Part shown: one piece after another, positions 41,742-53,851 of the stretch
Layout of the letters: each line of letters starts with the position of its first letter
Position numbering within the stretch: position 1 is the stretch's first letter
Assembly (NCBI GenBank): GCA_011634665.1
Contig: WAEK01000002.1
Span: 765,001 to 829,000, forward strand
DNA: 64,000 nt
Source of the DNA: Mortierella sp. BCC40632
Lineage: Eukaryota > Mortierellomycota > Mortierellomycetes > Mortierellales > Mortierellaceae
Reading direction: 5' to 3'
The notes under the pieces: model-generated
What the model saw: the letters and a program-made list of their open reading frames with translations, nothing else
The model's database searches: none
Told to the model about the DNA's origin: nothing
Made by a program: the position numbers and the translations under genes

Positions 41742-44256
41742 AGAAAGGAAGCTTTACTTCTTCTTTTTTGTTATCTTTTCATTATTGTTGTCTCTTGCCT
41801 GTATATAGAATTTTATTATCGCGCCATTGTACTGTACTATCTCTGCATACCCTCGTCCTCTCTCCTTCTCTCTCTCCCCTTTTGGTTGTAATACGCGCTC
41901 CCCAGTCTGCTTAGAAAAAGATTAACCGTAGAAAAAGAAAAAAAAAAAACAAAAACAATAATAATAATCGCCTCCAAAGGCCATACTTTTTTTTTAGTCC
42001 AACTAGTGCAACCGTCCTGCAAGGACTTTCACCCTTTTTTGAAATGCAGTGTTTGCTGGTGAATGCCACGGAACCCATGTTCGGTTTGTGCTCTCGGCTC
42101 CCTTTCTCTCTCCCTACTTGCTTGTGTCCCTGAGAACTGACAATGGCGACACAAGGACAATGAGAAAAAAAAAAAATGTGGAGCCGATTAGCGGCCGAGA
42201 CGCCCGTGGACGAAACTGTGGGGACAGCAACAGAGAAAGAGTGTATATGCAAATGAGGGGGAGAAGTAAGAACGAGGGAATAGAGAGACCGTGATGGAGT
42301 TTGAAAAACACTCACACATATTCAACACACGCAATGCAAGAAAAAAAGGTATACCGGTGCTGCGACAATTAAGAAGCCCGATGACTGATACGGTAGCCAA
42401 CCTTCAGGCCATTTTTTAGACTACTAACCCTACGATCACGATCGAGTAACAAGACCGAGAGTGAGAATAACCAGCCTGTTGCCCGTTCCTTGGAAAACAG
42501 CTCGCAAGGGTGTGGACTGACGGCGGGGAGGAGAAGGGGAGGGGGAGGGAGGGTACTGTGGAGGAAGACGAGAACGGGAACCGAAGCGGGGCTACAATCT
42601 GTCCACCAGCAAGGCTCGAATCGGGGTGCACCACACGAACATGAACTCTGGGCAATTTCTTCCCATCGTCGGTCTTCGTTCCGTCTCTATTTGCTCTATC
42701 CTTGTCTTCGCCGAGACAAAAAAGAAATGCATCAAAATGTAGGTGGGTCGAGCAATTATGGCCTGACACACACACAAAACACACACATTTACACTCATGA
42801 GCCAGGAACCATGAGCTGTGAGCCGTGGATATGTCTCTCTATTTGGTCTGTTACCCAGACAGAACACAGGGCTTCGCCCTAGTTAAGAGAGAGAGAGAGA
42901 AAGAGAGAGAGAAGAGAGCCACGGCTTCAGATGCCGACCTTGCTTTGTCATTCTGAAAAGGGAAAACAAGTCGTGTTTGAGGCAGGATAGGCCGAAAGGT
43001 TGTGTGCGCGCACGCGTGTGTGAGGATTGCGGGCGATTGCCTGCCCCACCTCTTCAACCCTTCTCCTTCGGCGAGCCTACGCTAGCCGGGCTGGGCGTGG
43101 TTTTCCCTCATCTTTGTCCTCTTTGTCCTCTTTGTCCTACAGTGTTTGCACGACTGGGTAGCGTCCAGGGAAGGAAGGAAGGTTGGCTTTTGGCGGTACA
43201 GACAGCCAACGCTCTCTTCGCTCTGCGATCAAGACACAGATTGTGGAGTGGAGTTGCAAAAAAAAAAAAAAAAAAGTGAGAAAAAGAAACTTTCGCCAAA
43301 AGGGAAATTGAACTGAAATTGAGCCCAAAGGAGCGAGTAGAATGGAGGAAGAAGAATTGGAAAGAGGAAACGAGCTTGCAGCCATGACGACGACTCGGAT
43401 GGGAATGTCGACAGGTGTACGCGCGCGCTTTTTTTTGTGAATGTGCGGGCCGTGATGCTTCAAGCCGAGCCGAACTCTCCAGAGCTGTCCCTCCGCCTAT
43501 CGTTCTCCCCATCCACACACATCCACACTCCACAATCATGATTTCTCTATTTCTTCTTCCTACCCCAACCCGGACATTGGTCCTCTCTTGAATGACCTCT
43601 GACCACTATCTTGTCTGCAACCGTACCGCGGCTTGGAGAGAAGTCCGCCACGAAGGCGGCTAAAAGCTGGAGAATAGCCCGAGCCTACGCCGGTTCAATG
43701 AAAACTCCCGATGTCCCTGAGGAAAAAAAGAAAAAAAAGTCTGTTTCGGCGAGCCATCTGGCTGGTTGCAGGTCTTATGATGGTCGTGGTAGCGGTTGTG
43801 GAAGAGTTGTAATTTGTATTTTCTTGAGTCGCGTCTGTATCCTGGTATTTCTATAGGGCGACGAACTCGCATAGAGGACAGTAGTGCGCGTGCATCAGTA
43901 AAGTGTATTATCCAAGCAACATTAAAACACCAAACTGAAACGCTAGACACCTATGAAATGATCAAAACAACAAAAGAATCGCGTCCCAGGCTTGACCTCC
44001 TGACACTATTCACCAAGAGGGAGAATGAATTGAGCCCAGCAGGTACAATTTGGACGCTCATAAGGTCAACGAGAACTGTCCCTGTCCTGGGTTTGGTTTG
44101 GGCTGAGCTCCATTAGGTGGCTTGAGGATTTGGTGGCAACACGAGGAACGCACCCATTGGCGCCAATTTCTTGAAGTTATTTTCTACACCATTTTGCCAT
44201 CGCTTTCTTCTTCACTCTCCTTCTCTGCCTTCAATTGAAATCATCAGCATATCCTC
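41742..44256. other. Intergenic spacer between the zinc-finger gene and CHFR
   Basis: About 2.5 kb with (GA)n near 42884-42911, a 9-nt repeat at 43112-43138 and A runs near 43258-43275. All open frames are short and overlapping, with no family motif. The last 100 bp are a CT-rich leader before CHFR. Confidence 0.5.
43112..43138. repeat. Nonamer tandem repeat (CTTTGTCCT)3
   Basis: Three perfect copies of a 9-nt unit in the spacer. Confidence 0.85.
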
Positions 44257-46971
44257 ATGGACAACCAAGAACAATCATCCACCTTGGTGTTTGACAATGA
44301 CATTGCAGAACTACCCGAGGATGAACCTATGAACCAGGAGGATCCGGCTTCTTCAGCGCGGTCACTTGTGACTCTCATCTCCCTCAATGCAAACGCAAAG
44401 GATGTAGACCTAGTCCTTAAAAAAACCATCTTTGGGCGAGATGGAGGTTAGTTCACTCATCGCAACTTTTATGGGCTTTTCATATGTCAATGTCAGCTTT
44501 GAAATGAAAGAGATGGGCTGATTCCTATCAAAAGAGTCACCAGTGCCACGAACTGACTCTTTTGTTGTCTTCCCTTCTAAAACTGTGTTTTAGATCAGTG
44601 TAGTCCAGGGGCTGTCCTGTCAGGGTCCAACTTTTCTCGAGCCCATTTTGAGGTCTCTTCTAGATCATTTTCGGACGTTGACGCGGTTATCTGGATCAGG
44701 GATTTATCATCAAATGGTGTCTGGGTGAATGAGAAACGCATTCCAAAGGATCAGCCTATTAAGATCTTCAACAAGGATATCATCTCCTTTAGTGCGGGCT
44801 CTATCACCGATCATCGTAAGTCGAGGTTTTGTCCGAGTTTTCATAGGCCATTGCTCTCCTCTTCTTCTTTCCAAGCGTCCTTCTTTCTAATGACTGTTCT
44901 GGAATTCATTGAACATATCTTTCTGTTCTGACAGGGTCATTCCCTGCCTTCATGCTTGTGGATAAACGGAGCCACTCAACACTCAAGAACCAGCAGAATG
45001 ACCATGCCAAACGCATCGCTGAAGCTATTGACGCAACCAATGAATCTTCTTCTCAGGAACAATCCAACAAAAAGCGCAAGACTGACTCTGATGCCGATCC
45101 AGAACGCGATATAAATGAGGATAACAATAGCAAGGAGAAAGACCCACTATCGGACACAATTGAGAGTAAACCACAGAGATTGGTCGCGACGTCAACTGAG
45201 ATCGAGGAGAGTGCCTTTGAAAAAGAGTTTGAGTGTGGAATCTGTCACGAGATCATGCACAAGGCACTCGTCCTCCAACCATGTCTGCATGCGTTTTGCA
45301 AGGAATGCTGCAAGGGCTGGTTTGCATCGTAAGAACAGCATAATCATATCTGTCAATTTACTGTCTATCTGTCGATCTCCTACTAGATCTACTCACTCAG
45401 TGAGTTTTTTTTTGTCTGATATCTTGGCTTTATTAGGAATTCTGAATGCCCGAGCTGTCGCCAAGAGGTAACCAAAACCAAGCGAGATTTCAAGCTCAAC
45501 AACCTGATTGCCCTATTTTTAAAGAACCGGCCACACATGGCGCGTGAGGACGTGGATGGGGACGGAGGAGTCGATAGTGATACATCTGACGTTGTACGGA
45601 GGCATAGAGCAGCTGGTGGCTATGATGATGAAGATGAAGATGATGAAGAAGAAGAAGATGATGATGGGGGACATCATTGGTTTGGATTGAACCATGCTGA
45701 TTTCCGAGATCATCGATATATAGGGCCACGGTTGCCCGCAACATGTCCCTGCTGTGATCCCGCCAACAACACGGGTTATGTGTGTCCTCCAGAAGTACGA
45801 CTGAATCCTCTGGCTGACAACGTAACTTTCAGAGAATATCAGGCGAGCCGTGAGCATAAACCTGGACATGGACAGTGTCAATGCGGACGACATACTCCAG
45901 ATATTCAACTTCCAGGACTCGAAGATACAAAAGATTTGTTCCGATGTAAGGTTCTTGGTTTAGTCGTGCCAAGATGAAAGCGTTATTATCTCTTGCCCTT
46001 CCCACCTTTTCTAATACTCAATGGTGCTTTACTACATTGTAGGCAAGATGTGTCACATAGCAAGCTGTGGTTGTAATATCAGTAGTGTGGAGGATCATAT
46101 TGTAAACAACGAGTTCTTTGACTGGGTCTTTAACCAGCAAGAGCTCTTGGTCATTAAGCGGTATCTTCATGGAAAAAACCAGACCTACAAACACATGTGG
46201 GAAGAAGTCAAAGAGGGCATGAACAATGGCACGCTTTACTTTTTGGGAACTCGGGACGCACCTAGCCAGGCTGCCCTTTCTGCTGCAGCAAAGGCAGCAT
46301 CAGTTCCAGCATCATCATCGTCGTCGTCATCGTCATCATCATCGTCATCATCATCGGCACCCCCAGCTTCTGCAACGGCAGCAGCTGGAGAGGGGGCCTC
46401 ATCTATACCAGACGATGCCTCAACCTCACCCTCTGGATCCTCTCAACCGGCTGCATCAGCCCAAACTTCTTCAACGGATACTCAGGACGGTGAGGGTGCG
46501 GGGGCAGCCCCAGCAGCCCCTGTAGTAGCCCCAGCAGTAGCCCCAGCAGTAGCCCCAGCAGTAGCCCCAGCAGCAAATCCACCAGTGGCTCCACTAGGAG
46601 CTCAGGGTGCCTTGCATCATAGAGCACAGTATAATGGTATAGTCTTTCACCCCATGGTTGGCCCGTACCATTTCCTCCCACGGTTAAGGCCATGGGTTGA
46701 TGGACCTCTTCCGGCGGTCGAAGCCCAACGAGGCGCAAGAGCAGAGCGTGCTGCGACACTAACGAGTTCAGACAAACTGTGTAACTCGTGCCGAGCAGAA
46801 TTCCACTCGAACGGGCCTTTGTACCAATGGCGTAAATCACTGGATCCTGCAGTGTTGGCAGCCTATGTCATCAACCGGGCTGATTGTTGGTGGGGACGTG
46901 AATGTCGAACACAGTTCAACAATCCTGCACATGCAGCAAGACTAAACCATATCTGTGACAAGATTCGCTAA
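44257..46971 (+). CDS. CHFR: CHFR-like E3 ubiquitin ligase: FHA, RING, Cys-rich region, PBZ
   Basis: Checkpoint ubiquitin ligase of the CHFR/Dma group. Five exons: 44257-44446, 44594-44815, 44935-45328, 45437-45945 and 46043-46971; 747 aa. The FHA domain (about residues 40-135) contains FGRDGD, NFSRAHFEV and DLSSNGVWVN. The RING (C238-C276) reads ECGICHEIMHKALVLQPCLH, then FCKEC and ECPSC, split by intron 3. The Cys-rich region with CPCC and CQCG pairs, then KMCHIASCGC, is CHFR-specific and absent from yeast Dma proteins. The last 25 residues form a PBZ-like finger, C-x5-C-x8-H-x5-H (WWGRECRTQ to LNHIC), known in human CHFR to bind poly(ADP-ribose). Poly-Ser and APAV repeats interrupt the Cys-rich part. 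It is convergent with the RING-BRCT gene, 240 bp away. Confidence 0.92.
46525..46572 (+). repeat. 12-nt coding repeat within CHFR (APAV units)
   Basis: About four copies of GTAGCCCCAGCA encode repeated APAV. They follow a TCA/TCG-coded poly-Ser tract at 46312-46356. Both lie in the insert between the CHFR Cys-rich segments. Confidence 0.85.
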
Positions 46972-47211: not shown

Positions 47212-50200
47212 CTAGGGTGTTCTTCTTGAATGCCACAACGCCCAAGCCCGATCTAGTTGGTCAAGTGCATTTTGTCGAGCCATTTCATCCGTATACAGAA
47301 GCTCCATATCCTGAGATCCCATCACGCCACAAGAGACACAATTCAAAAGCCAATGAAGTGACACAGCTTGATAGTCCAGTAACCACCCATGTTTCTTGAG
47401 ATCCGCTGGTGGTAAAGACGAAGGCAATGGCGAGGATGGGGTTGAAGTCAGGATCGGGGTCGGGGTTGGGGTTGGAGTCCTTCTCTCTCTTTCTTTCTTT
47501 ACTTGTGGTCGTGAGCTTGTCGGCTCGGTCTCTGCTTCCAACAGTCGTGATGGTGATGAAGAGTCGACGGCAAGTGCGGAGAAAATCGAGGGGTCACAAA
47601 CAATGATCGGTGTATTCCGATCGATCGGAACCTCCCAAGGTTTAGCCTCTTCAGTAATATACAAGGTCTTGCGTTCCTCTCTAAAGAACCGTTGGCTCTC
47701 TGTTAGTAGGACAGGCGTCGATGGCGTCGATTTTGAGCTGGGTTTCGTAGGTCGCTTACGAAGTGCAGTGGCTCCCCCATACTGCACTAACCGTAGCAGG
47801 TCCTGTTTCTTGAACGTAGATCTTTGGCCAAGGTTTTTAAAGTCCCCGTAAAAGAACATTCTGCATGACCCGAACAGTCTCTGATTCTGCATATGTAGTG
47901 CATACGATCGACGATATCACATTTTGTAGAAGGGCGAGGGTTGAGTGCAGGAAAAAAAAAAAGTCTTATCAGCAGAAAATACAAAAATACAAAAAAAAAA
48001 AAGTCCATAACAAGCCAAGGAAGACATTGAATAAAATAAGATGCACACTCGTACCTGCTGTTTCCGGAGTTCGCGTCGAAAGAGTGAGCCAGGAGCCGGT
48101 CCAAATTGCGTGTCCCCCTGGATAAGGTACCTTGGATCCGGTAAGGGGAGCCAGGTCTTATCCTTGATGCTGTCTATGAACCACTCGTACCGAACAATCC
48201 ATGTATTTGAGAGCATCCCAAAGAGATATTTTTGCATTCGGGGGCACAGAGCCCATTGTCCATGATAACTCTCATCCATTTCCTCTTCACCCATGTCGGC
48301 ATCACGAACTCCGAGTGAGGAAGTTGAGAACCGCTCCACTCGTTCGACGCTTGTGATGATATGGGTTACGGACTCGTGAAAATCTTGGTCCGGTAGGTGC
48401 TCCATTAACAACCCAGCCTCGATCAACCGGGTCGCATCCATATCAAATGCATCTCGATGCTCCCTGCGTAAGCCCGTAAAGATACAAGATATCATATTGC
48501 TCTTTCCCTGTTGGCCAAAGTTGGCTCCGTTGTCAGTGTGGGGACGGGAAGCACTTTGATTGGACAGCTGACTAGACTTGGAGCTATAATGTTCTTCGTT
48601 TTCCATATCGACAACAGCTGGGCTAATTCCGTGCATTTGGTAATCACTCTCCGTATCTCCCATATGGCTAGCATGTTGAAAGCTGTTTGGGGTCGGTGTG
48701 GCGGCCTTTGCCCGGGATGGACGGGGCTTCTTTGACAACGAGGGATAGACAGGAGTTGAACTAGACAACAGTGGACTCGACTCTTGTGATTCCATAGGCT
48801 GTATATCTTGCCGCCTTCGTTTTTGTCGTGACGGTGGCGGTGGCGGTAGATCTAGGTCCGTGTATGGTAATAGACTTGGCATGTACAGATCATTGGATGG
48901 CTGAGAGGATTCTATCACAATCCCCTTCTCTCCCTGACCCTTTAAACGAGTATTTTCCTCGCTCATTTGCGATGAATGTCCAGGTGCATCGTATTTAGAT
49001 CTCCTGGACAATTCAGTGTGTGAAAGTCCCATCGCTGGAGTCTGAGGCTGTCCACAAACAGGGCAATGGTCCTTCTCGCCATCATCCACTCCAAGCTCCT
49101 CGGTGTGCGTGCAGTATGGACAGATCCATCTACGAGTCGGACGCAACGAGGCCCTCCCTTGAGACTGTTGTTGAGACTGCATCCGTAAAGGCGGAGATGG
49201 TGTGGCTGGGGTATGGCTCAATGCCAACTCAGGAAAGGATGGAAGCAAAGGCAGTGTAGGCGATCTCGGCATGCTATTGGAAGGAGGCGCCGAGTTGGGC
49301 CTTGGTCGATCGAGATGCCTTTGATACATATCCTGTAACTCGAGGGTCTCCTGGACACCTAAAGATCCTACCGCATAGGCACTATCTGATTCTGAACTGG
49401 ACCGAACCCGTAATGACCCTGAAGAAACTGTGCGCGAGGGCTGGCGACTAGGAAGTGATCGTTCTGATTTGCTCATAGAATAGGTCGAGGGATCAAGTGA
49501 CATTGGAAGCGCTGCAAACGAAGGTGTAGGCATCCGAGGCGTACAAAAGTTAGACCCATTCTATATAGCGAAGTTTGCGCCGGTTCGTTTATTTAAGAAG
49601 ACCAACGGCATTCGGAGCAAATGTTAGAGTTACAATTAGTTCACTCAAGAGCCACTGCAGATCCTTCAGATTTTGATCAGCTTGCTAAAGAGTTATTCCA
49701 TAAAACTTACCAAATCGTCATTCGTAAGCATGGGCAAGCTGGGTAAAACAGGTGATTGTGTTGACTCCTCTACTTCCTGTGAATGCGGAACAGTACTTTC
49801 CTCTTGTCCTTTCATATCAAGCAACTGATGCAGCTGTGCCATAGTAGGTGGGGCCCTTTCATGATACTGTTGCTGGGATAGTTCGCGAGATATTTGCTGC
49901 GGTAATGACTGTTTTGATCCCTGCGGTTGCTGAAGTAGCCGTTGTTGGAGAGAGTGAGGCGGTGGGGTCTCCTGGCTATACTGTGTGCTTTGTCGCTGAC
50001 TCAGTGATGGTAGCTCCATGGTGGTTCCTGTGTCGTTAGTTGCCATGGATGTAGCAGCCGAGGTACGACTCAAGCTCGCTGTCGACTTCTTGCTATTGCT
50101 GGAGGGATGTCTTGATATCATGTCATTTTTGTGAGATGACATGGCGGCGCCAAGTGACGGTAGCGTTGGGGGCTCGATAGATGGAGGAACGGCAAGCGCT

Positions 50201-50972
50201 GCAGGAAGACTCAGTGGGATCAGATCTGGAAGAGTAGGACCACAATCAAATGTCCAGACCGGGCTGCCAACCGGGGTTCCTGACGCTATGCTACCTTCTC
50301 TCATTTGCTGTGAAGTAGATGTCTCTTCTGCATCGGGCCGCTGATTTGAGTCTAAAGCAGGATACCAAGAATCGGAAACAACAATGGTTAGCAAAGAGTC
50401 GTTGAAATGAATTTGTAGTACTAAAAAAAAAAGAGCAGAAGGTACAAAAAGCTCGAGTGATCGATACCGTTGGGCGGCCGCACTCCCAATGACTGAAGCT
50501 TGCTTGTACAGGCCAACATGATATCATAGGAGCTATTCCTGATTAGATTGCCTACGCGAGCAGGCAGCTTGCATGTTGGACATTTGCACAGAGTTCCTAA
50601 CACCGGCTCAATACACTGTCTATTGACAAAAAAGAAAAGAAGCAGCCGAGGAAGAAACGATGAAAACCAAACTTCCTCTTGGTTTGCTCTCTTTACTACA
50701 GTAGCACTCTGAACTTACTGACAGAAGTGATGACCACATTCCTTGACGGTGTAGGTTTCCCTAAGTTCCTTTCCACTGCATGGGCAGTCCACGCGGCATT
50801 AAGAACAAAATAGAAGTTGAGCGAATGAAACACGGTTGAGCTCAGTGGCTACTAGTCGATCCAAGACGAAAAATGAAAAAAAAAAAAAAAAAAAAAGGGT
50901 GCATTACCACAAAGGGCACAAGAAGAGACTTCGTAGGTGCTGTAGTGCGTTATCAAATGGGGTCGCAGCCAT
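47212..50972 (-). CDS. BRCA1/BARD1-like protein: N-terminal RING, zinc ribbon, tandem BRCT
   Basis: Predicted DNA-damage E3 ubiquitin ligase. Six exons: 50908-50972, 50719-50775, 50468-50619, 49711-50351, 48055-49560 and 47212-47886; all phases join and give 1031 aa. The RING starts at residue 19: CPLCGKELRETYTVKECGHH, then FCQQC and CKCPTCKLPARV, split over three exons. It is preceded by an amphipathic helix (NALQHLRSLF) and followed by NSSYDIMLACTSKLQSL, like the BARD1/BRCA1 helices. A Gln/Ser-rich linker holds a Cys4 ribbon (C452, C455, C471, C474). BRCT1 (about 660-792) has FTGL, QKYLFGMLSNTWIVRYEWF and YLIQGD. BRCT2 (808-1031) has RLFGSCRMFFYGDF and VQYGGA, with long inserts. T667-G668 and K749 align with BRCA1 phosphopeptide-binding S1655-G1656 and K1702. 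No ankyrin repeats. Confidence 0.88.
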
Positions 50973-51132: not shown

Positions 51133-53262
51133 TTACTTTTTGTTTTCTATGACCTTTACTTTTGGATCACGTCGCGATCCCCAACCTTCTGGTCCTCTAA
51201 CCTCGTCGTTCTTGGGCGGGAATTCAGCCTCAAAATTACGTCGCGAGATGGCATAAGTGGCATCAATCATAAGGATGATTTCACCAATGCCATAGACAAG
51301 TCCGATAGCATAGAAAAAGTTAGCGTTGCCACTTCCGACATAGATCCAGAGATACCAGAATACGGGGGCAAGGAATGACGAATACAGGTACAGGTTGACA
51401 ATCAAGAATGTATAGCGCATGTCTATTCGTAATTGAAAATAAAAGCAAGCGGTCAGTTGTCTGGAATAGAAGGGCGGATTTTAGACCACTATGACGCTCA
51501 GATTCCACCAAGATTTACTTACATTGAAAGATCTCGGAGCTGAGAGGCAGAAGGCCCAAGTACAAGGCAGCATCTCCAACTGCTGGGTATCCTTTGAACG
51601 TTCCAATGATAGCACTCAACAGGAACGCTACATACAACGGGTATTTTCTAAAACAGATCCAAGCGTTCAGTCAATTGGCTACACTCTATAACCGAAAGCA
51701 GGAAACACTAACTCAAGAAAGACATATACCTCAGCTTGAGAGCAACTGGCACAGCAAAGATAAAGACATGGATCTGGAAGACGATCAAGAAGAAGGGTCT
51801 AAATTGATCAAACATCTCGATGAAGAAATACCACAGCAAGCCCAGGTTCGGCGTCAAGTCTGCGACTCTGAAGCTATTAAAAAAAAAAAAAACAGAATAG
51901 GAAACCGTGAATATATAAAGTGAGTCTTAAAAAGAGAAAACGGGACCTTCAATGGACGTTCGAGAGTGTAACAGTAGTATCGAGAGAAGTCATACATGGT
52001 TCCATAGACACTTCCAAAGAATCCTACTCCATCCACCAACAAAGCTGAAAGACCAAAAAATGCAGACAAGAATGTGATATAGAGGCCGACACTTTGACCA
52101 GCAACCTTCTATATTATCGGGGGGAATGGAAAGAGTCCAATGTCAGTACGAGAAATGGCAGGATGATTATTTTCGTCATGCTCCAGGAGGTGCAGCTAGC
52201 TCAAATCATATCAAGTGGATTTACCCTCTGCAAGGTAATGTCCGACTGGTTGCGGTTGAGCAACAGGATGACTGGGATAATGATGATTGCTGGATACACT
52301 GACAGGTAGGACGCCAATGCAACACTAAACATGGCAAAGCTGATATTGCCTAATTTTCATGATGTGACCTTAAATGTGAATATCCATCCTCATATGAACT
52401 CACTTCAGGTCGGACAAAACTTCTCAAGATAAACTAGTCACTCACCTCGCATTCCCATCAGGATACTCGCGACTACAGAGATGTTGGAAAAGAGAATAGT
52501 ACTCCTGCCAATACAACTTGCAATCGAAAACGGGTTGAAAAGGTAAAGCGCAGCAACCTTGGCGCCATTTAGGCCAGGCTCCTCAAACTTTCCTCCATAC
52601 AGACGAATTTTCTTTGCTGTCTCTGCTTCTTTGTCCTTCAGTTGCGTGATTCGAAGAAGCATCAGTCCAACCATGATATCGCCGATGGAGAACAACAGTT
52701 TGATAAGGATGGGGCTATTGGTGATCGGATAGAATAGTCCTAGTAGCAGTGGAGCCTAGAGAGGTATTGAAGGCGATTGTTGGTCAGAGATCCTCCATGG
52801 TATCCTGGCTGTTATTGGCAAGCCTCATTGTAGTCCTACCTGATGGAATACACCTCCGTCATATGGAGGCACGCCGTTCCTGAACAGAAAGACACCTTCG
52901 GACACTAGCATTCATATTGCGGACAGAATCACAATAATCCGTAAGGTGAGTGAATTCAAGGCTGATCTTTTTCTGTCAATACACTGGGCACTTGAAAAAA
53001 GAGCTCCTAGGATCAATGCTGTAGCCTTACTTCTCTTGAAACTGGTGACAGGTGTCGATATCTCGACCCGATCCCCTAAAAATTCAGATAGCCCTGGAAC
53101 CTGGAAGAGTATCAGGCGGAGGATGAGAGCTAGTCCGAAGACCATGTGGGCAGCAGCGGCCTCCGACATGCCGGACTTTTTCGTTGTCGAGGATATAGAT
53201 GGTTCTGATGATGATGATAACTTGGCCATGGATGCCTCATGATCCCGTTTGGGTTGTGACAT
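51133..53262 (-). CDS. GAB1: GPI transamidase subunit PIG-U/Gab1
   Basis: Multi-spanning ER membrane subunit of GPI transamidase, which attaches GPI anchors to proteins. Eight exons: 53031-53262, 52840-52904, 52446-52755, 52225-52349, 51942-52108, 51730-51873, 51523-51647 and 51133-51422; 485 aa (human 435). The joins rebuild the family landmarks: [90 protein letters not shown] and [20 protein letters not shown]. The fifth intron is short (68 bp) with a weak GTTTTC donor; it was chosen by phase, and that boundary is the least certain. The N-terminal 35 residues are polar and extra compared with animal proteins. The start lies about 290 bp before the next homologous feature-free stretch; its promoter must be in 53263-53851. 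Confidence 0.92.
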
Positions 53263-53851
53263 GGCGCGTTGGACTAAGGTGACTTCTTGAACTTACATGC
53301 AGATGTGATACCATCATTTAGATGGTGGCGGACAATGGCCCCAGCCACGTCACAAATATCGCAATTGCTGCGCGGTGCGGCCATGCTGCCAGGGGCTACT
53401 TGAACTGAAGAAGAGGGGTTGGCTCAAAGGCACTTTTCAGCTGTGTCTCCAGGCTGGAGATATTTTTGGTCTTTGTTGATGATTCAAATGGGACTCAACG
53501 TCCTGCACTCAGTCTTCGCTTATCAGCCTGACTGATAAATACCTCGCATCCTGGACACTTTTTGGGCGTGTAAAACTCGTTTGCTCCAACGACGATTTAT
53601 CTTTTTAACTTTGAAAGATTATTAAACGTGGGGGATGTTCCCTCTAGACCAGAGAGTTGACAGTGGCATTGCCTTTTGCACAAAGTACAACAGAAATGGC
53701 TCAAGCAAAGACAACAGTCGATTCCTATATGTAAATTTGCCCATTCCAACAGTAACTATCACTCTTCATTCGATTGTACTAATTATCCACCAACCATATT
53801 ACACTAACAATCCATAGTCTTGTACTCTTCCTCCTTGGCTCATTTAGTATC
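53263..53851. other. Spacer upstream of PIG-U
   Basis: About 0.6 kb with no gene. It should include the PIG-U promoter and the broken end of the neighbouring transposase remnant. No terminal repeat could be identified. Confidence 0.45.

Follow-up and report, generated by a model that had tools for sequence, protein, structure and literature searches.

A conserved BRCA1/BARD1-type RING-BRCT gene with a zinc finger between its RING and BRCT domains in a Mortierella genome

Within a 64,000-nucleotide stretch of the genome of Mortierella sp. BCC40632 (contig WAEK01000002.1, positions 765,001 to 829,000; hereafter the window) lies a gene whose predicted product carries a RING at one end and a tandem BRCT at the other. 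The gene occupies positions 50972-47212 of the window on the minus strand (contig C2 of a 49.9-Mb, 62-contig genome), and its six exons, joined in phase across GT-AG introns, give 3,096 nt of coding sequence and a protein of 1,031 residues. The order of domains is RING, a long low-complexity linker that holds a conserved motif and a zinc finger, and tandem BRCT. Judged by its sequence, this is a real, conserved gene of the BRCA1/BARD1 type in a soil fungus, and we think it quite probable that its product serves the DNA-damage response as an E3 ubiquitin ligase of the RING type, akin to BRCA1/BARD1. An earlier note on this DNA had proposed such a gene at these coordinates, on this strand and with six in-phase exons, and our reading of the exon joints bears this out. 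The identity that the note gave to the gene also stands, although two things escaped the note: the zinc finger in the middle of the protein, which relatives in Mucorales also have, and the neighbouring CHFR-type gene.

The RING that had been claimed is there: residues 9-85 make up a C3HC4 domain with a helix on both sides and match human BARD1 (E 4e-9 over 77 residues). Many other RINGs match more weakly, and a fused RING2-BMI1 chain takes first place only because its two RINGs add up. When a 5-member family profile was used instead of the single sequence, the human BARD1 RING was matched at E 7e-14 across the RING and both helices. Among the Protein Data Bank (PDB) matches to this profile, BARD1 came after the RING2-BMI1 chimera (3e-17) and was followed by RING2 (1e-10), BRE1 (1e-9) and RAD18 (4e-8), and the BRCA1 RING was not among the best 60 of 103 matches. 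In bit scores, the Mortierellaceae profile gave BARD1 54.8, RAD18 36.4 and BRCA1 22.8, and a joint profile gave 65.6, 59.4 and 41.8, respectively. The RING is not closest to BRCA1: with a provisional BRCA1 RING sequence, BRCA1 scored below BARD1 and RAD18 in all three profiles compared (the third being that of the Mucorales). The Pfam model of the BARD1-type RING, PF14835, gave 23.6 bits for this protein, 31.6 for its relative P0003 and 33.4 for P0035 of Rhizopus, against a cut-off of 35, and the only NCBIfam model found for P0003 and P0035 was rad18, far under its cut-off. A P-A-x-x-x-[DN]-L run that follows the RING in the alignment is common to the fungal protein and human BARD1. At the position that contacts the E2, which we take to be that of BRCA1 Ile26, all eight aligned fungal RINGs have L, I or V, whereas human BARD1 has Arg. 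The flanking helices are also present in the structure model of a relative (P0019).

The BRCT pair consists of BRCT1 (residues about 661-777; 48145-48495, minus strand) and BRCT2 (residues about 808-1005; 47293-47886, minus strand). As a single query it matched BRCA1 (4.9e-7) and BARD1 (1e-4) in the PDB, with no other match below 0.3. An 8-member BRCT profile returned 30 matches in all at E <= 10, including BRCA1 (1.9e-16), BARD1 (5e-11), SLF1 (2e-4), KKT4 (0.005) and microcephalin (0.2). None of the 30 was a chain of Rtt107, Brc1, Crb2, TopBP1, MDC1 or 53BP1, all of which are presumably in the PDB, and the view that the pair is not of the Crb2/Rtt107 type thus held up in this search. (The match to KKT4, a trypanosome kinetochore protein, PDB 6zpk, is a side observation.) Thr667-Gly668 and Lys749, whose retention had been claimed, are kept and, together with Arg746, which we take to correspond to BRCA1 R1699, form four columns that are invariant in 8 of 8 aligned family rows. 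BRCA1 outscored BARD1 with both the Mortierellaceae profile (56.3 versus 45.2 bits) and the Mucorales profile (75.5 versus 58.6 bits); the top PDB chain for the Mucorales profile was BARD1, practically tied with the BRCA1 BRCT. Moreover, BRCT1 carries a C-x-R-x-x-K-Y and a G-D motif that resemble those of BRCA1, and in the structure model of a relative both repeats superpose on BRCA1/BARD1. The Pfam model RTT107_BRCT_5 matches the BRCT1 of Mucorales relatives (best 27.4 bits, cut-off 27; one above the cut-off) and is not listed for the protein itself.

Between the two ends lies a putative NZF/RanBP-like zinc finger of the form W450-x-C-x2-C-x15-C-x2-C (49054-49128, minus strand; C452, C455, C471 and C474), on which Pfam PF16988 reached E 0.016, under the cut-off. 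A finger of the form W-x-C-x2-C-x3-N-x6-C-x2-C, which we take to be the NZF/RanBP consensus, stands between RING and BRCT in 11 of the 12 rows of the Mucorales set described below; the spacing in our gene (x15) is wider than this canonical form, and the wider finger recurs in 13 of 23 proteins of the Mortierellaceae set. PF00641 gave the Mucorales finger 14.6-16.6 bits in three of five proteins scanned (cut-off 27) and was not listed for P0033, a metagenome protein; a UniRef name labels a Mucor relative as RanBP-type. The presence of a finger at the same place in both groups suggests a single ancestral RING-finger-BRCT layout. The linker also holds a motif (..GSPVWTFDCGPT; residues 117-131; 50233-50277, minus strand) of the pattern G-x-x-x-W-x-x-D-C-G-P-T (WTFDCGPT), in which G120, W124 and D127-T131 are invariant in 10 aligned Mortierellaceae members, and which is perhaps a binding motif.

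The nearest relative is a protein of Lunasporangiospora selenospora (Mortierellaceae), to which 71% of the query aligns at 74% identity. A protein search started from the BRCT region brought up no more than the Mortierellaceae set (23 proteins, 22 of them named Mortierellaceae), whereas a profile search returned 29 proteins, of which 27 are named Mortierellaceae and one is P0033; the name "BRCA1-associated RING domain protein 1" is carried by 12 of the 23 and 18 of the 29, respectively. P0033, which alone also weakly matches PTIP (0.005), retrieved 12 proteins when used as the query: itself, ten named Mucorales records from nine species (Pilobolus umbonatus, Rhizopus arrhizus, R. microsporus (twice), R. 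delemar, Sporodiniella, Blakeslea, Mucor velutinosus, M. bainieri and Choanephora) and one more. (The family of Lunasporangiospora and the order of Choanephora were looked up; the other relatives are presumably placed correctly.) These two sets bear out the claim that the gene is conserved in an early-diverging fungus. No member from Dikarya, chytrids or Glomeromycotina was returned by this word-based search of limited reach, which is no evidence of absence because animal BRCA1 was not returned either.

A full RING pattern and BRCT occur in one protein in five of the 23 models of the Mortierellaceae set (one of them, P0006, fused to a third gene) and in five of the 12 models of the Mucorales set (P0035, P0036, P0039, P0040 and P0041); in the other models the RING is absent or incomplete. 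Because annotated relatives carry both in one protein, RING and BRCT appear to belong to one gene. The possibility that the RING exons and the BRCT exons are two genes joined by our reading draws on the 18 of 23 public models in the Mortierellaceae set that are without all or part of the RING. We consider it very unlikely, given the complete single models from both orders and the in-phase exons; furthermore, the P0021 and P0022 models seem to have exon 1 joined directly to exon 3, as fits a skipped exon 2. The RING is thus often missing from the public gene models of relatives, and this hides the family.

There is likely no second RING-BRCT gene in the genome. The whole 49.9 Mb was searched exon by exon with PF00533, PF14835, PF16589, the gene's own BRCT, full-length P0035 of Rhizopus, a Linnemannia RING and the human BRCA1 BRCT, and the search for a second such gene that the earlier note had proposed came back empty, with three of the seven queries (PF00533, PF16589 and PF14835) missing the known gene as well, the first two its BRCT pair; because of this, and because the scans read single exons, the absence of a partner is likely, not proven. 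The human BRCA1 BRCT matched our gene alone (E 0.014), the BRCT part of P0035 matched no other place, and the gene's own BRCT found one extra place, on contig C5, which scores no better than chance (E 0.13) and in which no BRCT could be read. The best other place for PF14835, C11:920477, was rejected as a partner, because by eye the gene there combines a RING with WD40. Of the other RING matches, the best belongs to a RAD18-like gene on C19, which has its own second zinc finger and no BRCT in the frames read. RING places on C14, C15:17k, C18 and C19 were read directly, and no BRCT scan match lies within 25 kb of those at C15:1127k, C16, C22, C9, C2:240k, C2:1101k and C2:2177k. Other BRCT genes, named by eye, are RFC1, Chs5, PARP, ligase IV, Nbs1, an Rtt107/PTIP-like gene, a several-BRCT gene on C13 and pescadillo; in seven of these stretches (pescadillo's left out) there was no RING pattern, full or half, in a scan that detected the intron-split RING of our own gene only as a half pattern. 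The genome also has BRCA2 and FANCD2. (The repair genes seen elsewhere in it, some named by eye, are thus RFC1, Nbs1, the Rtt107/PTIP-like, several-BRCT and RAD18-like genes, BRCA2 and FANCD2; loci L009, L013-L015, L033, L035 and L058.)

The two ends of the protein disagree as to which half of the animal pair they resemble: the RING scores favour BARD1 (RAD18 in the Mucorales profile) and the BRCT scores favour BRCA1. A tree of 18 BRCT pairs, in which the BRCA1 and BARD1 rows are human only and the genome's own Rtt107-like pair is included, groups the fungi with BRCA1 at 86/84, which is not firm; the human and Rtt107-like rows sit on very long branches. Neither a grouping of the fungi with BARD1 (p 0.189) nor the fungi alone (p 0.468) was rejected, and the best tree separates Mortierellaceae from Mucorales unless BRCA1 is included, a joint grouping being equally likely. 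Thus this tree, which the earlier note had suggested, does not decide among BRCA1, BARD1 and an unduplicated form and does not by itself reject Rtt107.

It is possible that the protein is a BARD1 orthologue, the non-catalytic half of a heterodimer whose BRCA1-like or RING-only partner was missed. The RING of the Mortierellaceae profile (54.8 bits for BARD1 versus 22.8 for BRCA1, the latter with the provisional sequence) and the names given by NCBI to relatives point this way, and a divergent partner could have escaped, as the three Pfam models miss this gene and introns split RINGs. The fungal protein shares with human BARD1 the RING with both helices, the P-A-x-x-x-[DN]-L run and the C-terminal tandem BRCT. 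However, the human BRCA1 BRCT, P0035 and own-BRCT queries reveal no other BRCT partner, and the fungal protein differs from human BARD1 in its zinc finger, its hydrophobic E2-contact residue, its BRCA1-like C-x-R-x-x-K-Y, the ankyrin repeats, for which no model was listed at E <= 1, and a BRCT nearer to BRCA1. The lead of RAD18 over BARD1 in the RING profile of the Mucorales lowers the chances of such orthology further. That it is instead a BRCA1 orthologue whose BARD1 partner was lost seems doubtful to us. The best BRCT score is to BRCA1 (human, rat), with which the protein shares the phosphopeptide residues, Arg included, the hydrophobic E2-contact residue and the BRCT1 motifs, and the tree points the same way, if not firmly; passages of PMC11061109 likewise name the fungal homologues BRCA1. 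Against this, the RING is much less similar to that of BRCA1 (the provisional sequence) than to that of BARD1 and favours BARD1 and RAD18 in all three profiles, and the tree allows the fungi to join BARD1. Human BRCA1 is far longer than the fungal protein, and no PALB2 match rose above the cut-off here.

A further reading, which we regard as rather unlikely, is that Mucorales and Mortierellaceae have a single-gene RING-NZF-tandem BRCT ligase that works as a homodimer and does the work of both halves, either because it was never duplicated or because it took on both roles after its partner was lost; its RING would write ubiquitin and its NZF would read it, in place of the ankyrin-BRCT reader of BARD1. 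Most improbable is a repair protein of the RAD18 or Rtt107/Crb2 type. RAD18 shares the RING fold with both helices, as the structure model of a relative suggests, but is a separate gene here, with its own second zinc finger; RAD18 identity was rejected on this ground and on the tandem BRCT that stands in place of what we take to be the RING-UBZ-SAP order. As to the Rtt107/Crb2 type, the chains listed for the BRCT profile at E <= 10 include no Rtt107 or Crb2, and the Pfam matches of this protein do not include RTT107_BRCT_5. Plant BRCA1/BARD1 proteins have a RING, a PHD-type middle module and a tandem BRCT, and thus share both ends with the fungal protein and differ in the middle, where the fungus has an NZF-like finger.

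Several results weigh against a BRCA1/BARD1-type ligase of the damage response. In the Mucorales RING profile RAD18 (41.8 bits) comes before BARD1 (35.9) and BRCA1 (24.6, with the provisional sequence). The Pfam matches of the protein at E <= 1 include none of the BRCT models, and we regard the BRCT pair as divergent; BRCT2 contains a long low-complexity insert, and the rest of the linker, outside its motif, is poorly conserved. A split of the fungi plus the Rtt107-like pair from BRCA1 plus BARD1 was not rejected (p 0.115), and PALB2 was not found above the cut-off in the genome (best PALB2_WD40 match 0.089).

If the protein is nonetheless a BRCA1/BARD1-type ligase, damage kinases would phosphorylate a docking protein, and the BRCT pair would bind this phosphorylated damage-response protein through T667-G668, K749 and R746. 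BRCA1 BRCT recognises phosphopeptides of the pSer-x-x-Phe type, and by analogy the docking peptide may be of that type. The RING, possibly self-dimerising by way of its dimer-type flanking helices, would then recruit an E2 and ubiquitinate a nearby chromatin target. BRCA1-BARD1 acts on lysines of the H2A tail region, and a lysine-rich H2A tail would be the prime candidate substrate; the H2A copy that we read (one of two equally scoring matches) ends in LLPKKSKKGGVASQEM, with tail-region lysines and an SQ site. NZF fingers often bind ubiquitin and some bind RNA, and the central NZF-like finger may read either.

The presence of BRCA1-type genes in fungi is already known in outline, and the novelty that the earlier note saw in a fungal BRCA1/BARD1 was too strong a claim: the NCBI names and PMC11061109 precede it. 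The latter (2024) surveyed 183 fungal proteomes and five from other opisthokonts for 40 proteins of the Fanconi pathway and, in the passages available, gives BRCA1 as expressed in Lobosporangium and upregulated in Mucor lusitanicus and Rhizopus delemar; its table identifies BRCA1 by the BRCT model PF00533, its main text is without "BARD", and the main-text passages do not give the RING, finger or copy number of fungal BRCA1. Its BRCA1 homologues and the Mortierellaceae proteins named BARD1 by NCBI probably make up one gene family; Lobosporangium transversale is represented among both. According to passages of PMC3969565, BRCA1, BARD1 and others were lost in model fungi and are present in other species, and in those of PMC8483008, which mention a plant-specific PHD, there is no fungal BRCA1 in databases. 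In the open-licence PMC literature we found no relevant paper on BARD1 with Mortierella or Mucor. As far as searched, the apparently single-copy RING - NZF/RanBP-like finger - tandem BRCT layout of mixed BRCA1 and BARD1 character is undescribed.

To our knowledge, BRCA1-BARD1 is an obligate pair. A single fungal protein that joins a BARD1-like RING and a BRCA1-like BRCT1, and whose E2-contact residue is hydrophobic, would offer a simple natural setting in which to dissect each half, and it bears on how the pair arose; if the form were truly unduplicated, the plant and animal pairs would be separate duplications. With BRCA2 and FANCD2 present, a BRCA1/BARD1 pathway would become accessible in filamentous fungi amenable to laboratory culture.

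Turning to the gene model (all on the minus strand), exon 1 (50908-50972) holds the start codon, its ATG at 50972, the N-terminal helix and the first two RING cysteines (C19 and part of C22); the RING models of relatives start with a comparable short helix. The middle of the RING (C35-H37-C40) is encoded by the 57-nt exon 2 (50719-50775), and the remainder (C43, C54, C57) with the C-terminal helix by exon 3 (50468-50619). Exon 4 (49711-50351) is linker; a CTAAC branch-like site precedes its acceptor at 50351, and an alternative acceptor at 50420 would also preserve the frame (1,054 aa), with an intron of only 47 nt. Exon 5 (48055-49560) covers linker, zinc finger and BRCT1, and exon 6 (47212-47886) covers BRCT2 with its insert, and the stop codon, which ends at 47212. 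The exon joints within the RING and the BRCT pair align with relatives free of gaps. RNA fold prediction at the 3' end of the gene gave nothing notable.

On one side of the gene (51136-53292, minus strand) lie exons of the GPI transamidase subunit PIG-U (4e-15, 8e-17). Of the 23 database models of relatives, 4 have PIG-U and the RING-BRCT gene fused into one; the gene order therefore looks conserved, and the fused models are likely mis-joined. On the other side, a convergent gene for a CHFR-type ligase (44239-46971, plus strand) ends about 240 bases from the RING-BRCT gene; its domains are FHA (1.2e-10), RING (25.3 bits, cut-off 25.2) and, under their cut-offs, the cysteine-rich zf-CRD of CHFR (0.006) and PBZ (1e-4). 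Two predicted damage-response ubiquitin ligases thus likely stand side by side.

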